In this document: in pieces, positions 2,376 through 56,061 of the stretch
Numbering within the stretch: position 1 is the stretch's first letter
Layout: every line of letters begins with the position of its first letter
Origin: Olsenella porci
Lineage (GTDB): Bacteria; Actinomycetota; Coriobacteriia; Coriobacteriales; Atopobiaceae
Direction of reading: 5' to 3'
Length of the DNA stretch: 64,000 nt
Assembly: GCF_009695875.1 (NCBI RefSeq)
Contig: NZ_VUNC01000001.1
Span: 434,001 to 498,000, forward strand
Notes under the pieces: generated by a model
What the model was told of the DNA's origin: nothing
The model's input: only the letters and a program-made list of their open reading frames with translations
Databases searched by the model: none
Made by a program: the position numbers and the translations under genes

Positions 2376-2423
2376 CGTCAGAAACCTCACGCCGTGTGTA
2401 CACGTGGGACGCACTTTTTGGCG
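2376..2423. repeat. 48-bp palindrome with GTGTACAC core, copy 1
   Basis: The element is symmetrical about GTGTACAC at 2396-2403. Outer arms read TCAGAAA on the left and TTTTTGG on the right. It is the first of four copies in 330 bases. Confidence 0.8.
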
Positions 2424-2479
2424 GCGTTTGCGCCTCGGCTATCGGTGACCTGCGGGTGAGTCCCGCTCCTCGTGGACAG

Positions 2480-2527
2480 TGTCAGAAACCTCACGCCGTG
2501 TGTACACGCGGGATGGACTTTTTGACG
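2480..2527. repeat. 48-bp palindrome with GTGTACAC core, copy 2
   Basis: Core at 2500-2507. The left arm is nearly identical to copy 1 (TGTCAGAAACCTCACGCCGT); the right arm ends ACTTTTTGACG. The centre lies 104 bases from copy 1. Confidence 0.8.
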
Positions 2528-2552
2528 ACAGTGGGGCCAGGAGGGAACCTTC

Positions 2553-2600
2553 CGCCTGAAAACCCGTCCCATGTGTACACGCGGGATGGACTTTCTGGCA
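2553..2600. repeat. 48-bp palindrome with GTGTACAC core, copy 3
   Basis: Core at 2573-2580. Right arm GCGGGATGGACTTTCTGGCA is the best match to the family consensus, and its complement resembles the left arm. The centre lies 73 bases from copy 2. Confidence 0.8.
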
Positions 2601-2657
2601 AAGCTTCGCTCCATAATGCTCGGCAACTGGGGAAACGCAGGGGATTGACGGCTTCGC

Positions 2658-2704
2658 TGCCAAAAATTTCGTCCCATGTGTACACGCGGACGCACTTTCT
2701 GGCA
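2658..2704. repeat. 47-bp palindrome with GTGTACAC core, copy 4
   Basis: Core at 2678-2685. Ends are TGCCA and TGGCA, an inverted pair, and CGTCC on the left is matched by GGACG on the right. The centre lies 105 bases from copy 3. It is one base shorter than the others. Confidence 0.8.
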
Positions 2705-3312: not shown

Positions 3313-3400
3313 GGATGGTCGCACCAGCAGGATGCCCCATCGCGACGCAACCCAGAACCAGTCGGGGCGGCACGCGCCCCGTCGACCCTCGGGAGACGAG

Positions 3401-5092
3401 ATGAAGAAGAGCAACAAGTTCCACATCCCACGGAAGGGCGAGGGGGAGAAGTCATTCCCGCAGCCACCGGAGGGCGCCGACGACGCGGCTCACGATTCTA
3501 CGGAAGAGCAGCAGACTGTCCTGGCTCCCAAGCCTGTCCTGGGGCATCGCGGGGGAGAGGGGCACGCCGACCTGCCGCCCGTCGTCGAGGGGCCCGAGCT
3601 CGACGAGGAGGAGCGCGCCGCCTATGAGCGCCTGAAGGAGATGCGCGCCCAGCGCCGTCGCAAGAAGATCCGTAACCGCCTGATAGTCGCCGGCATCGCC
3701 GCGGTCGTGATCCTGGGAATCGTGTTCGTTCCCAAGATGCTTGCGCCCAAGGACGACGGCGGGGACTTCTACAGCACGGACACCGTGACCAAGGGTCACT
3801 TTGAGGAGACGGTCGAGGCCTCCGGGTCGGTGCAGCCCGTCTCGTCGGTCGTAGTGACCCCCGAGGTCGACGGCACCATCGCGAGCGTCAGTGTGATGCA
3901 GGGCCAGCAGGTCGAGAAGGGGCAGACCCTCTTCACCATCAAGAACGACGACCTCGACCGCGCCGTGCGCGAGGCGTACCGCAACCTCAAGTCCGCCAAG
4001 TCGCAGCTTGCCCAGGCGCAGCAGGCGCTCAAGGACGCTAAGTCCGCCGCGGCGCAGGCGCAGGCCGCCTCGGCACAGGTGGGCGCCGACCAGCAGGCGG
4101 CTGCCCTCCCCAACGCCACCTCCGCCACGCTTCACCAGGCAGACGACGGGGGCGTCCCCGCCGACTCCTCCAATGGTGGAGTCGCGATGGGCGACACCTC
4201 CGGACAGGGTGGCTCCGCGACCACCGCCATCTCCTCGGGCGACGCGGTCCAGGATGCCAAGAACGCCGTCGAGACCGCCCAGAACCAGGTCGATGACGCC
4301 CAGGATGCCTACGACAAGGCCGTCTCGCAGGCGAACAAGCGCACCGTGACCTCACCCATCTCGGGCACCGTGCTGGAGCTCAACGCCACAACCGGATCTG
4401 CGGTGGGCCAGCAGGCCGCCTCCGCCCAGGCACAGGGCACTGGGAGTGGCAACCTCTGCCAGGTAGCCGACCTCTCGCAGATGAAGGTGACGGTCAACGT
4501 GGGCGAGAACGACATCAACAAGGTCGCCGTTGGCCAAAAGGCGACCGTGACCTTCTCGTCCATCCAGGACCTCTCGCTTGACGCCACGGTCCAGTCCGTT
4601 GCCGCGACCACCAGCACCAGCTCCGATGCCACCGGGATGACCAGCGGTCCCACGTACGCCGTGGAGCTTCTCATCCCCCAGCCCGACGCCAAGGTCAAGC
4701 CGGGTATGACCGCGAACGTGAGCATCGTCACCAACTCGCTGGACGACGCCCTCATCGTCCCCACGTCCGCGCTCACGGACAACGGCGACGGAACGGGCAG
4801 TGTCAACGTCGAGACGGACGCGGAGTCCCACACCTCGCGCACGGTCAGCGTCACGATCGTCGCCAAGAGCGGCTCGCAGGCCGCGGTGACGGGAGACCTC
4901 AAGGAGGGGGACGTGCTCGTGGTCTCGGGCGGCACCGTCGACTCGGGCGAGACGGGCGACGCCACCGCCACCGACGCCTCGTCCTCTGATGGCGTGGACT
5001 CCTCGGCAGGCGGCGAGGCCTCGGGCGACTCCGTCCCTGCTGACGCGACGGCTGACCGCATGGTCGCAGGTCGTGCCCTTGGGGTGCTGTGA
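3401..5092 (+). CDS. MacA/HlyD-type periplasmic adaptor of ABC exporter
   Basis: 563 residues. A charged cytoplasmic tail of about 93 residues is followed by one membrane helix (about 94-112) and then an extracytoplasmic adaptor. The latter has a lipoyl-like half motif (GSVQPVSSVVVTPEVDGTI), an Ala/Gln-rich coiled-coil hairpin, the second lipoyl half (TVTSPISGTVLELNATTG) and a beta-barrel region. The C-terminus is a Ser/Asp/Ala-rich tail. Such proteins link an FtsX-type permease to its substrate at the cell surface. The ATG at 3401 follows a GGGAGACGAG ribosome site; an upstream ATG at 3332 adds an implausible leader. The next gene starts 2 bases after the stop, so the three genes form an operon. 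The long cytoplasmic N-terminus is unusual for MacA. Confidence 0.88.
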   Translation: MKKSNKFHIPRKGEGEKSFPQPPEGADDAAHDSTEEQQTVLAPKPVLGHRGGEGHADLPPVVEGPELDEEERAAYERLKEMRAQRRRKKIRNRLIVAGIAAVVILGIVFVPKMLAPKDDGGDFYSTDTVTKGHFEETVEASGSVQPVSSVVVTPEVDGTIASVSVMQGQQVEKGQTLFTIKNDDLDRAVREAYRNLKSAKSQLAQAQQALKDAKSAAAQAQAASAQVGADQQAAALPNATSATLHQADDGGVPADSSNGGVAMGDTSGQGGSATTAISSGDAVQDAKNAVETAQNQVDDAQDAYDKAVSQANKRTVTSPISGTVLELNATTGSAVGQQAASAQAQGTGSGNLCQVADLSQMKVTVNVGENDINKVAVGQKATVTFSSIQDLSLDATVQSVAATTSTSSDATGMTSGPTYAVELLIPQPDAKVKPGMTANVSIVTNSLDDALIVPTSALTDNGDGTGSVNVETDAESHTSRTVSVTIVAKSGSQAAVTGDLKEGDVLVVSGGTVDSGETGDATATDASSSDGVDSSAGGEASGDSVPADATADRMVAGRALGVL

Positions 5093-5093
5093 C

Positions 5094-5870
5094 ATGACCG
5101 CTCCCGTAATAGAGATGCGCGGCATCCACCGCATCTTCGAGACCGCCGCGGGCCTCAACCACGTGCTGAGGGGGGTGTCCCTCACGGTCGAGCGCGGGGA
5201 GTTCCTCGCGATCATGGGGCCGTCTGGCTCGGGCAAGTCAACGCTCATGAACATCCTCGGCTGCCTGGACACCCCTACCACTGGCACCTATCACCTCGAG
5301 GGCCTGGACGTGGCACGTCTCACCGACGACGAGCTCTCGTTCGTGCGCGCCCGGCGCATCGGGTTCGTGTTCCAGTCGTTCAACCTGCTGCCCACCTACA
5401 CCGTGCTGCGCAACGTGATGCTCCCGCTCGTGTTTGCCGGGGTCCCGTACGGCGAGAGGGAGGAGCGCGCGGTCCGGGCGCTCCACGAGGTCTCGCTTCC
5501 CGTTGACCACTACGACAACAGGACCAACCAGCTCTCCGGCGGGCAGATGCAGCGCGTCGCCATCGCCCGTGCCGTCGTGGCGGACCCGGCGATCATCCTC
5601 GCGGACGAGCCCACGGGCAACCTCGACTCCGCCACGGGCGAGATGGTCATGCAGACCTTCGCCCGGCTCCGCGACAAGGGGAAGACCATCGTCCTCATCA
5701 CGCACGACCCGCACGTTGCCGCCCGCGCGGACCGCACGCTCCACATGCTGGACGGCAGGCTCGTCGCCACCCCCGACGAGGGCGTGGACCAGGGATGGGG
5801 GCAGCTCTCCTCTCCCGCAGCAACGGGAGAGGGGCGCACCAAGCGCCTGAGGGAGGTGCCGTCGGTATGA
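5094..5870 (+). CDS. MacB/LolD-type ABC exporter ATPase
   Basis: 258 residues of a single ABC ATPase domain. Walker A is GPSGSGKST at residues 42-50, followed by the MacB/LolD-type MNILGCLD; the signature is [14 protein letters not shown] and Walker B is [13 protein letters not shown]. The switch histidine is in LITHDPHVA. It powers export with the adjacent permease and adaptor. The start is 1 base after the adaptor stop, and the 3' end overlaps the permease start by four bases (ATGA), typical of translational coupling. Confidence 0.93.
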
Positions 5871-7105
5871 CCATGACCATGCGCGACCTGTTGCGCGAGA
5901 CCACCAGCTCGCTCGAGGCAAACCGCGGCAGGACCCTGCTCACCGTGCTGGGCATCGTCATCGGCATCGCCGCCGTCATCGCCATGACCTCGCTCATCGG
6001 GGGCATGCGAAACGCGCTCGTGGGCAGCCTGGGCCTCAACGCCGCCAGGACCGTCAGCATCTACGTCAACGGCAGCGGGTTGGGCGAGCAGCAGGTGGAC
6101 TCGCTCCGCTCCGCCATGCCCGAGTACGAGAGCCTGGATGGCGTCACGTATGGCGGCGGCACCGTGAAGACCCAGGGCGGCAGCGTCCAGATGACCGCCA
6201 TGGGATGTGCAGCCTCCACGGTCACCAGCTCGGGCGCCAAGGTCACCTCGGGCAGACTGTGGAGCGACTCCGAGGCGAGCTCGGGGGCCAACGTGTGCGT
6301 CCTCACCACGGACGACGTGCGGCAGATCTTTGGGAGTGCCGACTATGACGCAGTGGGGAAGACCTTCAAGCTCGACTCCGCCGAGTTCACCGTCGTCGGC
6401 ATCGCGGAGACGGACTCCGGCATGGGCCAGGGGCAGGGCATGATGTGGGTCCCCGCCCAAACGTGCGCCAACCTGTGGATGGGCGGACAGCTCACCTACG
6501 ATTCGCTCACCGGCATCGTGCACGAGGGGGCGGACGTGGACCAGGTTGCCACGCGCACCAAGGAGCGCCTGGAGTCCATCCTGGGCGTCACCTCGCAGGG
6601 CTCCAGCGACGGGTCCGACTCCATGGGCGACACGGTCCAGGTGCAGACCATGAAGTCGGTCATCGACCAGCTCGACAGCTTCTCGTCCACCTTCAGCCTC
6701 CTTGCCGGCGCAGTCGCGGGCATATCGCTCCTGGTCGGAGGCATCGGCATCATGAACATGATGCTCACCAACGTCACGGAGAGGATCAGAGAGATCGGGC
6801 TCCGTCGAGCCCTCGGTGCCACCAGGGGGGACATCACCGCGCAGTTCCTGGCCGAGTCCATCGCCATCAGCGTCATCGGCGGCATCCTGGGCGTGGCGCT
6901 GGGCTATGGCGGGTCATGGGCGCTCGCGCTCGCCATCCCCACCAGCTCGCTGGGCATGGGCGACACCAAGATCGTCCCGGCGGTGTCGCCCGAGGCGGTT
7001 CTGCTCGCCACGGGCATCTGCGTGGTCGTGGGCTTGCTGTTTGGCTACTACCCCGCCCGACGGGCGGCGCGGCTCGACCCGGTCGAGGCGCTGCGTTACC
7101 AGTAG
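5867..7105 (+). CDS. MacB/FtsX-type ABC permease
   Basis: 412 residues. An N-terminal membrane helix ([18 protein letters not shown]) precedes a MacB-like extracellular domain of about 230 residues. The C-terminal FtsX domain has three helices and the conserved stretch [28 protein letters not shown]. With the preceding ATPase and adaptor it forms a tripartite-like exporter of unknown substrate (antimicrobial peptide, lipoprotein or drug). In a Gram-positive cell it would work without an outer-membrane channel. A GGGAGG ribosome site lies inside the ATPase gene, supporting coupled translation from ATG 5867. Confidence 0.92.
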
Positions 7106-8783: not shown

Positions 8784-8830
8784 CGTGCGCGCTGGGCACC
8801 GGCCGCCTCTTTGGCACTTTCCCATCGGAT

Positions 8831-8876
8831 GGTAGCGGGCTCTCGATATGAGTGCTCACTTCAGGTGCTCGTTGCC
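8831..8876. repeat. 46-bp palindrome, copy B1
   Basis: Imperfect palindrome centred on TGAGTGCTCA (8849-8858), starting GGTAGC and ending TTGCC. Confidence 0.75.
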
Positions 8877-8902
8877 ATTCGAACCCGGCGTGTGAGCTAT
8901 TT

Positions 8903-8948
8903 GGCAGCAAACTCCCGATGCGAGTGCTCACATCGGGAGTTTGCTGCC
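8903..8948. repeat. 46-bp palindrome, copy B2 (best copy)
   Basis: Perfect 18-base arms, GGCAGCAAACTCCCGATG and its exact complement, flank a 10-base core CGAGTGCTCA. It is the cleanest member of the family and would form a very stable hairpin or cruciform. Confidence 0.9.
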
Positions 8949-9016
8949 ATCGACGGGAGAAGCCCGTACCCCTTAGGCTCTTTACCTGCGTGGATGTCGT
9001 GGAGACCTGGTCTTCC

Positions 9017-9062
9017 CCTGGCTGACCGCCCACGAAAAGTGCTCACGCGGGGCGTTTGCTGC
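9017..9062. repeat. 46-bp palindrome, decayed copy B3
   Basis: The core AGTGCTCAC and right arm ending GTTTGCTGCC are kept, but the left arm has lost most symmetry. The end still falls at the family length. Confidence 0.5.
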
Positions 9063-9297
9063 CAGCGGGATGGCGTGTGCCCCTCCCGTCCGGGATGGAG
9101 ATGCTCCCATGGGTGGCGTCTGCGACCCTCTCCTTCGTCGAGCCCTTCTTCTCGGGGAACCAACTTTTGGTTTTTGAGCTAGCCCTTCAACGGTGGGTGG
9201 CGAAACGGAGACCCTCCCACGAAGCCGTACGGGACACAATATAACGCGGACGACTGGTCACCCAATCGCCCGCGCTTGGTAGCTGTTGCCTTGCCAG

Positions 9298-23157: not shown

Positions 23158-23235
23158 GTGCCGTCCGCACCCATCAGGCACCACGTAGCAGTCACAAGGG
23201 CGCCCCACGGGGCGCGGCAAAGAAAGGAAGCCTTC

Positions 23236-25746
23236 ATGGCCGAGGAGCTTGGAACACCTTGGAAGAAGCTCGACGCACCGGTTGCCGAGGAGGAGCTGGC
23301 CTGGGTCGACAGGTATTGGCGTGCCGCCAATTACATGTCGGTGGGCCAGATCTACCTGCGCAGCAACCCGCTCATGCGCAAGGACTTCGTTGACGAGAAG
23401 ACGGGCGAGACGCGCGACTTCGGCCGTGCCGACGTCAAGCACCGCCTGGTTGGCCACTGGGGCACCACGCCCGGCATCAACTTCCTGATGGGCCACGTCA
23501 ACCGACTCATCCACGACCACGGCCAGAGCGTCGTGTTCTTCATGGGGCCGGGTCACGGCGGACCTGCCGGCACCTCCCAGTCGCTGCTCGACGGAACCTA
23601 CCGCGAGCACTACCCGCAGATTACCGACGACGAGGCTGGCCTGCAGCGCTTCTTCCGCCAGTTCTCGTACCCCGGCGGCATCCCCAGCCACTTTGCGCCC
23701 GAGACCCCCGGCTCCATCCACGAGGGCGGCGAGCTCGGCTATACCCTCTCCCACGCCTACGGCGCCGTCCTCAACAACCCCAGCCTGCTTGCGTTCGCCG
23801 TCGTGGGTGACGGCGAGGCCGAGACCGGCCCCCTCGCCACGTCCTGGCAGACCAACAAGCTGATCAACCCCGTCACCGATGGCATCGTTCTGCCCGTCCT
23901 GCACCTCAACGGCTACAAGATCGCCAACCCCACCATCCTCGCCCGCATCAGCGATGAGGAGCGTGACGAGTTCTTCCGTGGCATGGGCTATCACCCCTAC
24001 ACGTTCACCGCTGGGTTTGATGACGAGAGCCACATCTCGATCCACCGTCGCTTTGCCGCGCTGCTGGAGCAGGTGTTCAACGAGATCTGTGACATCAAGT
24101 GGCGTGCCCTTGCCGGCGAGACCGCCCGCCCCGAGTACCCCATGATCATCTTCCGCACCCCCAAGGGTTGGACGTGCCCCAAGTACATCGACGGCAAGAA
24201 GACCGAGGGCAGCTGGCGTGCCCATCAGGTGCCCCTGGCGTCTGCCAAGGACACCCACGAGCACTTCCGTGTGCTCCGCAGCTGGCTGCGCAGCTACAGG
24301 CCTCAGGAGCTGTGGGACGAGAACGGTACCCTTCGCCCCGAGGTCACCGAGTTCATGCCGCAGGGCGACCTGCGCCTGGGGGCCAACCCCAACGCCAACG
24401 GTGGCCTGCTCCTCGAGGACCTCACGCTGCCCGACATCCACGACTACGAGATTCCGGTCAAGGAGAAGGGCCATGGCTGCGGCATGACCGAGGCGGCTCG
24501 CGTGTTTGGCAACTACACCGCCGACGTCCTCAAGCTCAACCTCACCAAGTTCCGTCTCTTCGGGCCCGACGAGACCGCGTCCAACCGCCTTCAGGCGGCG
24601 TACAAGCTCACCGATAAGCAGTGGGACGCCGGCTTCAACGCCGACCCCGAGAACGACGTGTACCTCAGCAGCACCGGCTCGGTCATCGAGCAGCTGTCCG
24701 AGCACCAGTGCGAGGGGCTCCTCGAGGGCTTCCTGCTCACCGGCCGTCATGGCGTGTGGAGCTCGTACGAGTCGTTCATCCACGTGGTCGACTCCATGGT
24801 CAACCAGCACGCCAAGTGGCTCGAGGCCACCGTTCGCCACATCCCCTGGCGCAAGCCCATCTCCAGCCTCAACATCCTGCTCACCAGCCACGTCTGGCGT
24901 CAGGACCACAACGGCTTCAGCCACCAGGACCCCGGCTTTGTGGACGTGCTGCTGAACAAGAACTTCCACAACGACCACATCGTCCAGGTGTACTACCCGG
25001 CCGATGCCAACATGCTCCTGTGCGTTGGCGAGGAGGCCTACAAGTCCACCAACAAGATCAACGCGATCTTCGCCGGCAAGCAGCCCTCGCCGACCTTCCA
25101 GAGCATCGACGAGGCCAAGCAGGAGCTCGCCGAGGGCGTGGCAGAGTGGGAGTGGGCGGGCAACACCGCTGCGGGCGAGAAGCCCGACATCGTGCTCGCC
25201 TGCTGCGGCGACGTCCCAACGCTCGAGATGCTCGCCACCTCTGACGCGCTGCAGGACCTGGGCATCAAGGTCCGCTTCGTCAACGTGGTCAAGCTCCTCT
25301 CCATCCAGGACAGCGAGGAGAACGACGAGGCCATCTCCGACGAGCGCTTCAAGCAGCTCTTTGGCGAGGACGTGCCCGTGCTCTTCGCCTTCCATGCCTA
25401 TGCGCACACGGTGTACGGCCTCATCCACGGTCGTCCCAACCACGACAACTTCCATGTGCACGGCTACATGGAGGAGGGCTCCACGACCACCCCGTACGAC
25501 ATGCTTCGCCTCAACGAGATGGACCGCTGGGCGCTCGCGTCGCATGCGCTCGAGATTCTGGATGCCAAGAAGTGGGCAAAGCAGATCAAGGAGTGGCGCG
25601 ACTTCCGCGACGAGGCCTTCCAGTTCGCCGTGGACAACGGCTACGATCACCCGCGCTTCACCGAGTGGGTCTGGCGCGAGGTCACCGGCCACCAGGACAA
25701 CTCCGCGGCGGCCATGTCCTCCACCGGCGGCGACAACGACGAGTAG
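23236..25746 (+). CDS. xfp: Xylulose-5-phosphate/fructose-6-phosphate phosphoketolase
   Basis: TPP enzyme that splits xylulose-5-P (and often fructose-6-P) with phosphate into acetyl-phosphate and glyceraldehyde-3-P (or erythrose-4-P). 836 residues, slightly longer than bifidobacterial Xfp because of extra residues near the start and a short Ser/Gly/Asp tail. Conserved blocks include [63 protein letters not shown], the TPP motif [30 protein letters not shown] and [16 protein letters not shown]. It is the metabolic sink for the arabinose and xylulose genes nearby. Confidence 0.97.
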
Positions 25747-38156: not shown

Positions 38157-38482
38157 GGGTCCTGTGGCGCCGAGCGTGCCGGCGACCCTCGTTGCCGGCA
38201 TTTGGGCTGATGCCAAGCCGTCCGCCCGGTTGGCTGTCGCGTTGCGACCCCTCAAGGCCAAAGAAGGGGAGAGGGCAATTCACCCTCGCGGGGTTGGTTG
38301 CCCTCGAGGAAGGGTCTGTTCCGTTCCTGGTCATCGGCATCACCTGCCATACAGACGCTGGCGGCGGTGTTTTCGAGTTAGTGTGCGTCTTACCCAGCAT
38401 CCCCCCGCGCGCGGAGGGTCGCTGTAGTCCCCTTTTGAGGGCTCTCCACCGCAGATGGGACACGATTGCGAAGGGCTCGCTT

Positions 38483-38528
38483 GGCAGCGAACTCCCGAAG
38501 TGAGTGCACATATCGGGCTCTGGCTGCC
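38483..38528. repeat. 46-bp palindrome, copy B4
   Basis: Starts GGCAGCGAACTCCCGAAG, core TGAGTGCACA, ends GGCTGCC. Same length as the other copies. Confidence 0.8.
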
Positions 38529-38687
38529 ACCGAAGTAACCCCGTGGGTCGCTGCACTGCCGTCAAAACATCAAGTAATAAACTATGATGGTAAAACGTCC
38601 GCGAAGCCGCCGTGCTAGGGGGCTGAAATGCGTGCGGGTCCCACGTACAGCGCTCGGGCCACAGGCCACGTTTGCCACGTCAGGATG

Positions 38688-49336: not shown

Positions 49337-49405
49337 GCATGGGCTAGGCTCATCGGCATCCCCCCAGGTGGGAGACTTGCGCGAGGCGGTAGCCCCCCGA
49401 CCCGT

Positions 49406-49451
49406 GGCAGCAACCTCCCGACGCGAGCACTCACATCAGGAGGTTGCTGCC
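49406..49451. repeat. 46-bp palindrome, copy B6
   Basis: Arms GGCAGCAACCTCCCGA and AGGAGGTTGCTGCC around GCGAGCACTCAC. The left and right arms have changed together at the CAACCTCC position, which keeps the pairing. Confidence 0.85.
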
Positions 49452-49477
49452 AATCGGATCCGATTGAGGGGCCTAAT

Positions 49478-49523
49478 GGCAAGAGACTCCCGATATGAGT
49501 ACTCACTTCGGGAGCCTGCCGCC
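49478..49523. repeat. 46-bp palindrome, copy B7
   Basis: Starts GGCAAGAGACTCCCGATATG, core GAGTACTC, ends CGGGAGCCTGCCGCC. Confidence 0.8.
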
Positions 49524-49581
49524 ATGGTCCAAGGCTTGATTGGGTTCCAACTGGGATTGCGCCCCAGGCGTCGGGCCCTCT

Positions 49582-49627
49582 GTCAGCGGGAGCCTGATAT
49601 GTGCGTTCACTTCTGGAGTCTCTTGCC
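49582..49627. repeat. 46-bp palindrome, copy B8 (diverged)
   Basis: GTCAGCGGGAGCCTGATATG, core TGCGTTCA, ends GGAGTCTCTTGCC. Length is kept while arm matches are weaker. Confidence 0.6.
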
Positions 49628-50258
49628 AACCGGCTTGCCTGAAAGGGATTCGGCCGGAGCCTCGCGCCATCCCCGGCCGACAAGCGCTCAAGGAAGGGGA
49701 TGGGGAGTACGGACCGCGTGAGGAGGGGCCGGCTGGGTGAGAGAACGCCCCTCTCCATTCTCAGACCGTCGATTTCCTTCAATGGGTGGCACGGCTTGCA
49801 ACCCCGGGGAGCGGGTTGCAGATGGGACCACGGGGGCTCGTCCTTATGCACATGCGAGCGACTTGCTGCTAGGGGGAGCCGCTATCGTGTCTCCCATCCC
49901 TACCAATTCCTTCTTAGGTGCTCTTCGACGAGCTACAGGTATGTCTTTCCCATCGAGCGCAGGGGCTTTCTCACTGTCGTGTCAGCCCATTCCCGCAGCC
50001 CTACCGGGGCTTGATGCCAAGGGGGAATCATCGCGCCCGTTATGACGATATCGCTTCTCCCCCAGCTTGGCGTGTCCGGACGATACAATCGTGTGGACCA
50101 ACTGCGCTGTGACTGACGGAGAATCGTGGGCAACCACGGGGGAGCGGCGCACGTAACCTACCATGCCGACCGTCTGGGCAAGTCGCACCCGCAGGGAGCG
50201 TCTGCCCACGTGTGGCGTCGTTCCCTTGGTGCGAAGGATCGCTTCGAAGGGAGCTCGC

Positions 50259-55534: not shown

Positions 55535-55575
55535 CGCGTGCGCCTGCCACTGCCCCCTCTCACTTCTTGCCAGAT

Positions 55576-55621
55576 GGCAGCAAACTCCCGACGTGAGTGC
55601 TCACATCCGTCGTCTGCCGCC
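55576..55621. repeat. 46-bp palindrome, copy B9
   Basis: Left arm GGCAGCAAACTCCCGACG, core TGAGTGCTCA, right arm ends TCTGCCGCC. Confidence 0.8.
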
Positions 55622-55680
55622 AGGGAGATGACCCCCAGGGCCGAGTGCCCCAGTTGGTCATTCATCAATGTTTCAACCAT

Positions 55681-55726
55681 GACAGCTACTTCCCGATGCG
55701 AGCGCTCACATCCGTCTCCCGCTGCC
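55681..55726. repeat. 46-bp palindrome, copy B10
   Basis: GACAGCTACTTCCCGATG, core CGAGCGCTCA, ends TCCCGCTGCC. Confidence 0.75.
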
Positions 55727-56061
55727 ATTGACGGGAACGGCTCGGCGAGGGAGGTGGCGGCAAAACGTCGGCGTGATCGCGCGGAGTCCCCCGGGTGGCG
55801 GGGGGGGGTGGCGTTGCCCTGCCCAGCCCCCTTGCCGGCCCCAGTCCCTCGCCGTTTCTTACACCACTTCTGTGCGCACTACCCACAGAAGTGGTCCGCT
55901 TCCCGAGGACGTGCCGCCGTGATACCCCCCGTCAAAAGTCTCTCTTCTTTGAGCCCCTATGTGGATGCTCACCAGCTGTGTGAACAGCGGGCCCTCGCAT
56001 CTATGTAAGCAAGGTCTCCGATGCCTGAGGAGGGGAGAAGCACTATCCGCTGATTGCCGCG

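Follow-up and report, generated by a model that had tools for sequence, protein, structure and literature searches.

Helix-phased arrays of intergenic dyads in an Atopobiaceae genome are candidate composite binding sites for a nucleoprotein complex

Dispersed palindromes in bacteria are usually put down to RAYT-driven hairpins or to inert debris. An array in the 64-kb window (the whole stretch of DNA analysed here) raises the question of whether either explanation suffices. It sits in a 1.56-kb intergenic gap, from the end of murB at 1774 to the start of a MacA-like gene at 3332 or later. The core GTGTACAC lies there at 2396, 2500, 2573 and 2678, with 104, 73 and 105 bp between copies, exactly where the first-pass annotation had placed it and far beyond chance: the window contains five copies against a mean of 0.35 in shuffled sequence, and five were never reached by shuffling. 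A position-weight model of the surrounding dyad, family F1, scores 59 bits for dyad 1 (2376–2423, core 2396–2403), 64 bits for dyad 2 (2480–2527, core 2500–2507), 62 bits for dyad 3 (2553–2600, core 2573–2580; 73 bp from dyad 2) and 26 bits for dyad 4 (2658–2704, core 2678–2685); no F1 score in ten shuffled windows reached 0. The dyads, here and below, are given without strand. Their earlier description as 48-bp palindromes with common outer-arm ends needs qualification: three units are 48 bp long, the fourth has a one-base deletion and measures 47 bp, all are imperfect, and the arms are present but vary between units (CGTCAGAAA, TGTCAGAAA, CGCCTGAAA, TGCCAAAAA; family consensus TGTCAGAAA/TTTCTGACA). 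Downstream, a MacA-like/ABC ATPase/permease operon (3332–7105) separates murB from a beta-lactamase-like and a PFL-like gene, which come directly after murB in most relatives.

The annotation had missed a second motif in this array, as well as three further arrays in the window. The motif, M, reads GTTTCCCCAGTTGCC on the minus strand at 2622–2636, where its 14 of 15 matches are the best in the 64 kb, and its centre is 52.5 bp from the centres of both dyads 3 and 4, the midpoint of their 105-bp spacing. The further arrays (8830–8949, 49405–49628 and 55575–55727) are built from a paralogous 48-bp dyad, F2, with the core GTGAGYRCTCAC and the layout TGGCAGCAA-ACTCCCGAT-GTGAGYRCTCAC mirrored. Dyads at 8830–8877 and 8902–8949 are 72 bp apart and are followed by a degenerate unit (9017–9064) whose right half is intact and whose score is near noise level. 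The second array has dyads at 49405–49452, 49477–49524 and 49581–49628, spaced by 72 and 104 bp, with a weak M-like motif (49546–49560, minus strand, 10/15) midway in the 104-bp spacing. In the third, the dyads at 55575–55622 and 55680–55727 are 105 bp apart and the M-like motif AGTGCCCCAGTTGGT (55644–55658, plus strand, 11/15) again stands midway. A single F2 dyad lies at 38482–38529.

Throughout the genome of this gut-type actinobacterium (G000, 2.36 Mb) the core GTGTACAC occurs 70 times, against 18 for the reversed control. The 48-bp sequence model together with direct reading gave 15 F1 arrays, all intergenic. Every one of the 36 F1 within-array spacings falls into the classes 73 (13), 84 (4), 85 (1), 104 (9) or 105 bp (9), in the order long-73-long. 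Copies scattered singly, which the annotation had named as evidence against phasing, are few and partly degenerate; the copies mainly form arrays with the same spacings. F2 spacings are 71/72 or 104/105 bp in 16 of 19 adjacent pairs, counts from a list separate from the approximate F2 list used in the circular statistic. F2 arrays often lie 140–500 bp away from an F1 array, and one mixed array has three F1 units and then one F2 unit, at spacings of 104, 73 and 104 bp. The array regions at C1:390688–391656 and C1:384801–385665 (L079 and L078), about 6 kb from each other, are 82–84% identical, and one has an extra dyad and linker, which suggests that recombination between dyads adds or removes units.

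The F1 model gave no convincing match in 99 relatives and one weak match among 140 genomes of the family, pointing to a species of another genus of Atopobiaceae (G162). About 20 arrays read there have the same architecture with a different core, the dyad being TGGCAGAAA-N9-GTGCGTACGCAC mirrored and GTGCGTACGCAC its core. Matches to this dyad at spacing 73 number 55 in G162 (0 in the reversed control), two in its congener G028 and 0 in six other congeners. In 19 stretches of G162 the 51 spacings are 72 (3), 73 (24), 82 (1), 83 (1) and 84 bp (22); because the search was set for 73, that class is partly built in, whereas the 84 class and the order are not. Three arrays reached through the F1 model rather than through spacing (L191, L193 and L195) likewise give 72/73 and 84, and the one array of G028 runs 73-84-73. 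The comparison with related genomes that the annotation had proposed did not refute it: G162 keeps phased spacing despite its different core.

Other dyad families were also encountered. Tandem arrays with a 73-bp period, alternating linkers and a 146-bp higher-order period are formed by another dyad, GTCCGTTTGTGCACACG...CGTGTGCAAAGTCGGAC, in G121 (L239–L243) and G033 (L244); they were found by the spacing-73 search, so their period is not independent evidence. A third family, F3, is a 52-bp dyad (TGCCGCGGATTCCGAACGGTTAGGGC mirrored; L291–L310, for example L310 1325–1438) with matches in all eight species of the genus of G162, in pairs 60–62 bp apart in 21 of 25 spacings, or about 5.8 turns. 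Since seven of these eight species have Y1_Tnp genes, F3 may be an ordinary REPIN family.

The annotation's claim of whole-turn spacing was borne out, both in F1 and in G162. Taking 10.5 bp per turn, the classes of 73, 84 and 104.5 bp correspond to 6.95, 8.0 and 9.95 turns, with a class-level p of about 0.0015 that is to be read with care, as the arrays share ancestry and only three classes are independent. The 72-bp F2 spacing (6.86 turns) is slightly off a whole number. Mean pairwise identity of the 73-bp-class linkers is 37–38%, against 27% for shuffled linkers and 63–68% for dyads; with identity near random and length fixed, length is kept while sequence drifts. In three homologous loci the arrays keep 73 and 84 exactly, and the control flank outside them, up to the next F2 unit, measures 236, 254 and 256 bp. 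Fixed spacing alone need not mean helical phasing, since that of F3 is constant yet non-integral. The case for phasing in F1, F2 and G162 comes instead from the agreement of several length classes and from the position of M midway, and as a matter of sequence geometry it is well supported.

M (GTTTSCCCAGTTGGS) is directional and occupies the exact midpoint of most long linkers in both G000 and G162, with scores exceeding shuffles in most of them. Of the 18 F1 linkers in the 104/105 class, 15 have M at 51.5–53.5 bp from each neighbouring dyad, as do 8 of the 9 long linkers that are F2 or mixed; in G162 all 84-bp linkers have it at 41.5–42.5 bp from each dyad. It is weak in the 84-bp linkers of G000, and the 73-bp linkers gave no match above noise. 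The distance from M to a dyad is therefore about 52 bp (5 turns) in 104/105 linkers and 42 bp (4 turns) in 84 linkers, so that, from 84 (42+42) to 105 (52.5+52.5), both flanks of M lengthen by about one helical turn. We take M to be unlike the IHF consensus in its sequence.

Do the dyads act as duplex sites or as hairpins? Half-to-half pairing in F1 was 75.0%, against 75.7% when shuffled (66.6 against 66.5% in a second test), and in G162 it was 61.8 against 62.1%; neither set shows compensatory covariation between dyad halves beyond shuffles. An RNA or cruciform hairpin was rejected on these two negative tests. As each half-site is conserved by itself, the dyad looks like a dyad-symmetric protein site on duplex DNA. 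Hairpin repeats of the REPIN or BIME kind, spread by a RAYT and functioning as structures in RNA or single-stranded DNA, would account for intergenic, palindromic, composite and species-specific units in many copies per genome, and in BIME-1, too, two palindromes enclose a protein site (PMC2817692). However, no Rfam family matched, and the covariation missing here is common in REPINs (PMC3116915). RAYT genes (Y1_Tnp, PF01797) gave 0 matches in G000 and G162, although they are present in 9 of the 12 genomes searched, including all seven congeners of G162, among them G028 with its single array. The hairpin reading is very improbable and for these genomes already largely refuted; RAYT/REPIN membership was rejected for G000 and G162, and the arrays may work like a BIME without being filed as one.

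In design, the nearest known system is the BIME-1 or RIB of enterobacteria, in which two REP palindromes flank an IHF-binding sequence and for which a role in chromosome organisation has been proposed (PMC2817692). The two share a dispersed intergenic order of palindrome, central protein site (predicted here) and palindrome, several per array. Their sequences are unrelated, and the present arrays differ in their 48-bp duplex-type dyads lacking covariation, whole-turn spacing, M exactly midway and the absence of RAYT from G000 and G162. Tandem REP arrays of Pseudomonas fluorescens SBW25 (GI and GIII) have fixed separations of 72 and 112 bp, and resemble ours as species-specific intergenic inverted-repeat units; REPIN arms covary, form predicted hairpins and are tied to RAYTs, neither of which holds for our arrays, and the passages cited do not describe the distances as phased (PMC3116915).

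The distribution of the arrays bears on whether they are mobile. They lie between convergent as well as co-oriented genes, beside unrelated cellular genes (rpsJ, rpoB, serS, tgt, murB and others) among which no candidate for a cognate protein was found. Within the regions compared, no neighbour on either side is common to G000 and 20 stretches of G162 and G028, and no orthologous array positions were found between G000 and G162. In relatives, murB at the window locus is followed by a beta-lactamase-like or PFL-like gene without an array, and at one G162 array site congeners have the same two flanking genes and no such array (a gap of, for example, 141 bp versus 459 bp); gain here or loss there fits these empty gaps equally with these genomes. 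Such dispersal, to different places in each species and with orthologous gaps empty in close relatives, undoes the contrast with mobile DNA that the annotation had drawn. It favours a non-autonomous mobile element whose dyads bind a transposase or recombinase, the phased array being a synaptic or targeting complex spread in a lineage and lost elsewhere. The species-specific copy number seen among G162 and its congeners, a 527-bp copy present with 99.8% identity at two sites separated by 7 kb, homology between G162 arrays that stops at their outermost dyads, and the TG start and CA end of all dyad consensus sequences point the same way. The empty orthologous sites of a MITE or transposon end are thus seen at both the G162 and window loci, but there is no target-site duplication around the dyads or the 527-bp copy, the copies have diverged like unconstrained intergenic DNA with no fresh burst, and the scan of G162 neighbours showed ordinary cellular genes and no transposase that recurs. 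In G000, about 1.3 kb away from one F1 array, where a contig ends, a fragment (C9:284249–284575, L042) resembles by eye the N-terminus of an IS110-type transposase. No match to a phage, plasmid or viral origin was obtained, and we consider a mobile element possible, if rather unlikely.

Constant spacing could also reflect nothing more than recent copying of a single element whose phase is not under functional constraint; the arrays are clearly homologous, some pairs being 82–99.8% identical. Such an origin is hard to reconcile with linkers of near-random identity but invariant length, with length classes that differ by whole turns symmetrically around M, and with unconstrained flanks that vary in length, and we judge it improbable. 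Long dyads in multi-site arrays are typical of operators, and some arrays, that of the window included, precede a gene by a few hundred bp; yet the neighbours that a transcription factor would control are unrelated and differ between species, and several arrays stand where two genes converge and a promoter would not be expected, so that we give operators equally little credence. A CRISPR array was rejected: in place of identical direct repeats and unique near-equal spacers there are two to six imperfect dyads with several fixed spacing classes, and no cas genes occur among the neighbours scanned.

We favour the reading, with a probability of roughly 0.6, that these scattered arrays act as composite binding sites on which a phased nucleoprotein complex is built, most likely serving as landing pads where protein would assemble in a row. 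Protein binding to the dyads is strongly inferred. The missing covariation favours binding to duplex DNA; the cooperative binding or DNA loop that the annotation had proposed would be a further step. A sequence-specific protein, as a symmetric dimer or tetramer, would occupy each 48-bp dyad (an arm of about 9 bp, a 9-bp variable middle and a core of about 12 bp, mirrored). Neighbours 73 bp (7 turns) apart would touch directly. At total spacings of 84 or 104/105 bp, contact would run through a second factor on M, which lies 4 or 5 turns away from either dyad, so that the whole assembly would face one side of the helix. Res sites, lambda attP and plasmid centromeres resemble the predicted arrangement, as they hold several dimer sites in fixed helical register with the site of a bending protein in between; those are single functional loci per replicon, in contrast to the dozens of scattered intergenic copies here, and no recombinase or partition gene was found beside the arrays examined. 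As to the role of such a complex, our guess, slightly preferred, is chromosome structuring or local topology control, as proposed for E. coli BIMEs; the main alternative is a synaptic or targeting site of a mobile system. The turnover of positions between species argues against an essential fixed architectural role.

What is kept genome-wide is geometry rather than linker sequence: whole-turn spacings outlast near-complete linker drift, a second site stands exactly midway, and the same rule holds in another genus with a different core. We found no earlier description of these arrays in the literature. More tentatively, they may belong to a previously undescribed, lineage-specific nucleoprotein system of Atopobiaceae, in which a dedicated dyad protein whose site specificity evolves fast (two genera show three related cores) and a partner on M would form helix-phased filaments or loops at dozens of intergenic arrays. 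Whether interspersed repeats can serve as phased nucleoprotein scaffolds is directly testable in genomes without RAYT. One G162 array (L226 1–1462) is flanked by a gene that matches the C-terminal domain of Wadjet JetD and by a homologue of the large window gene at 23158–25746, and the same defence locus may also be present in the window.
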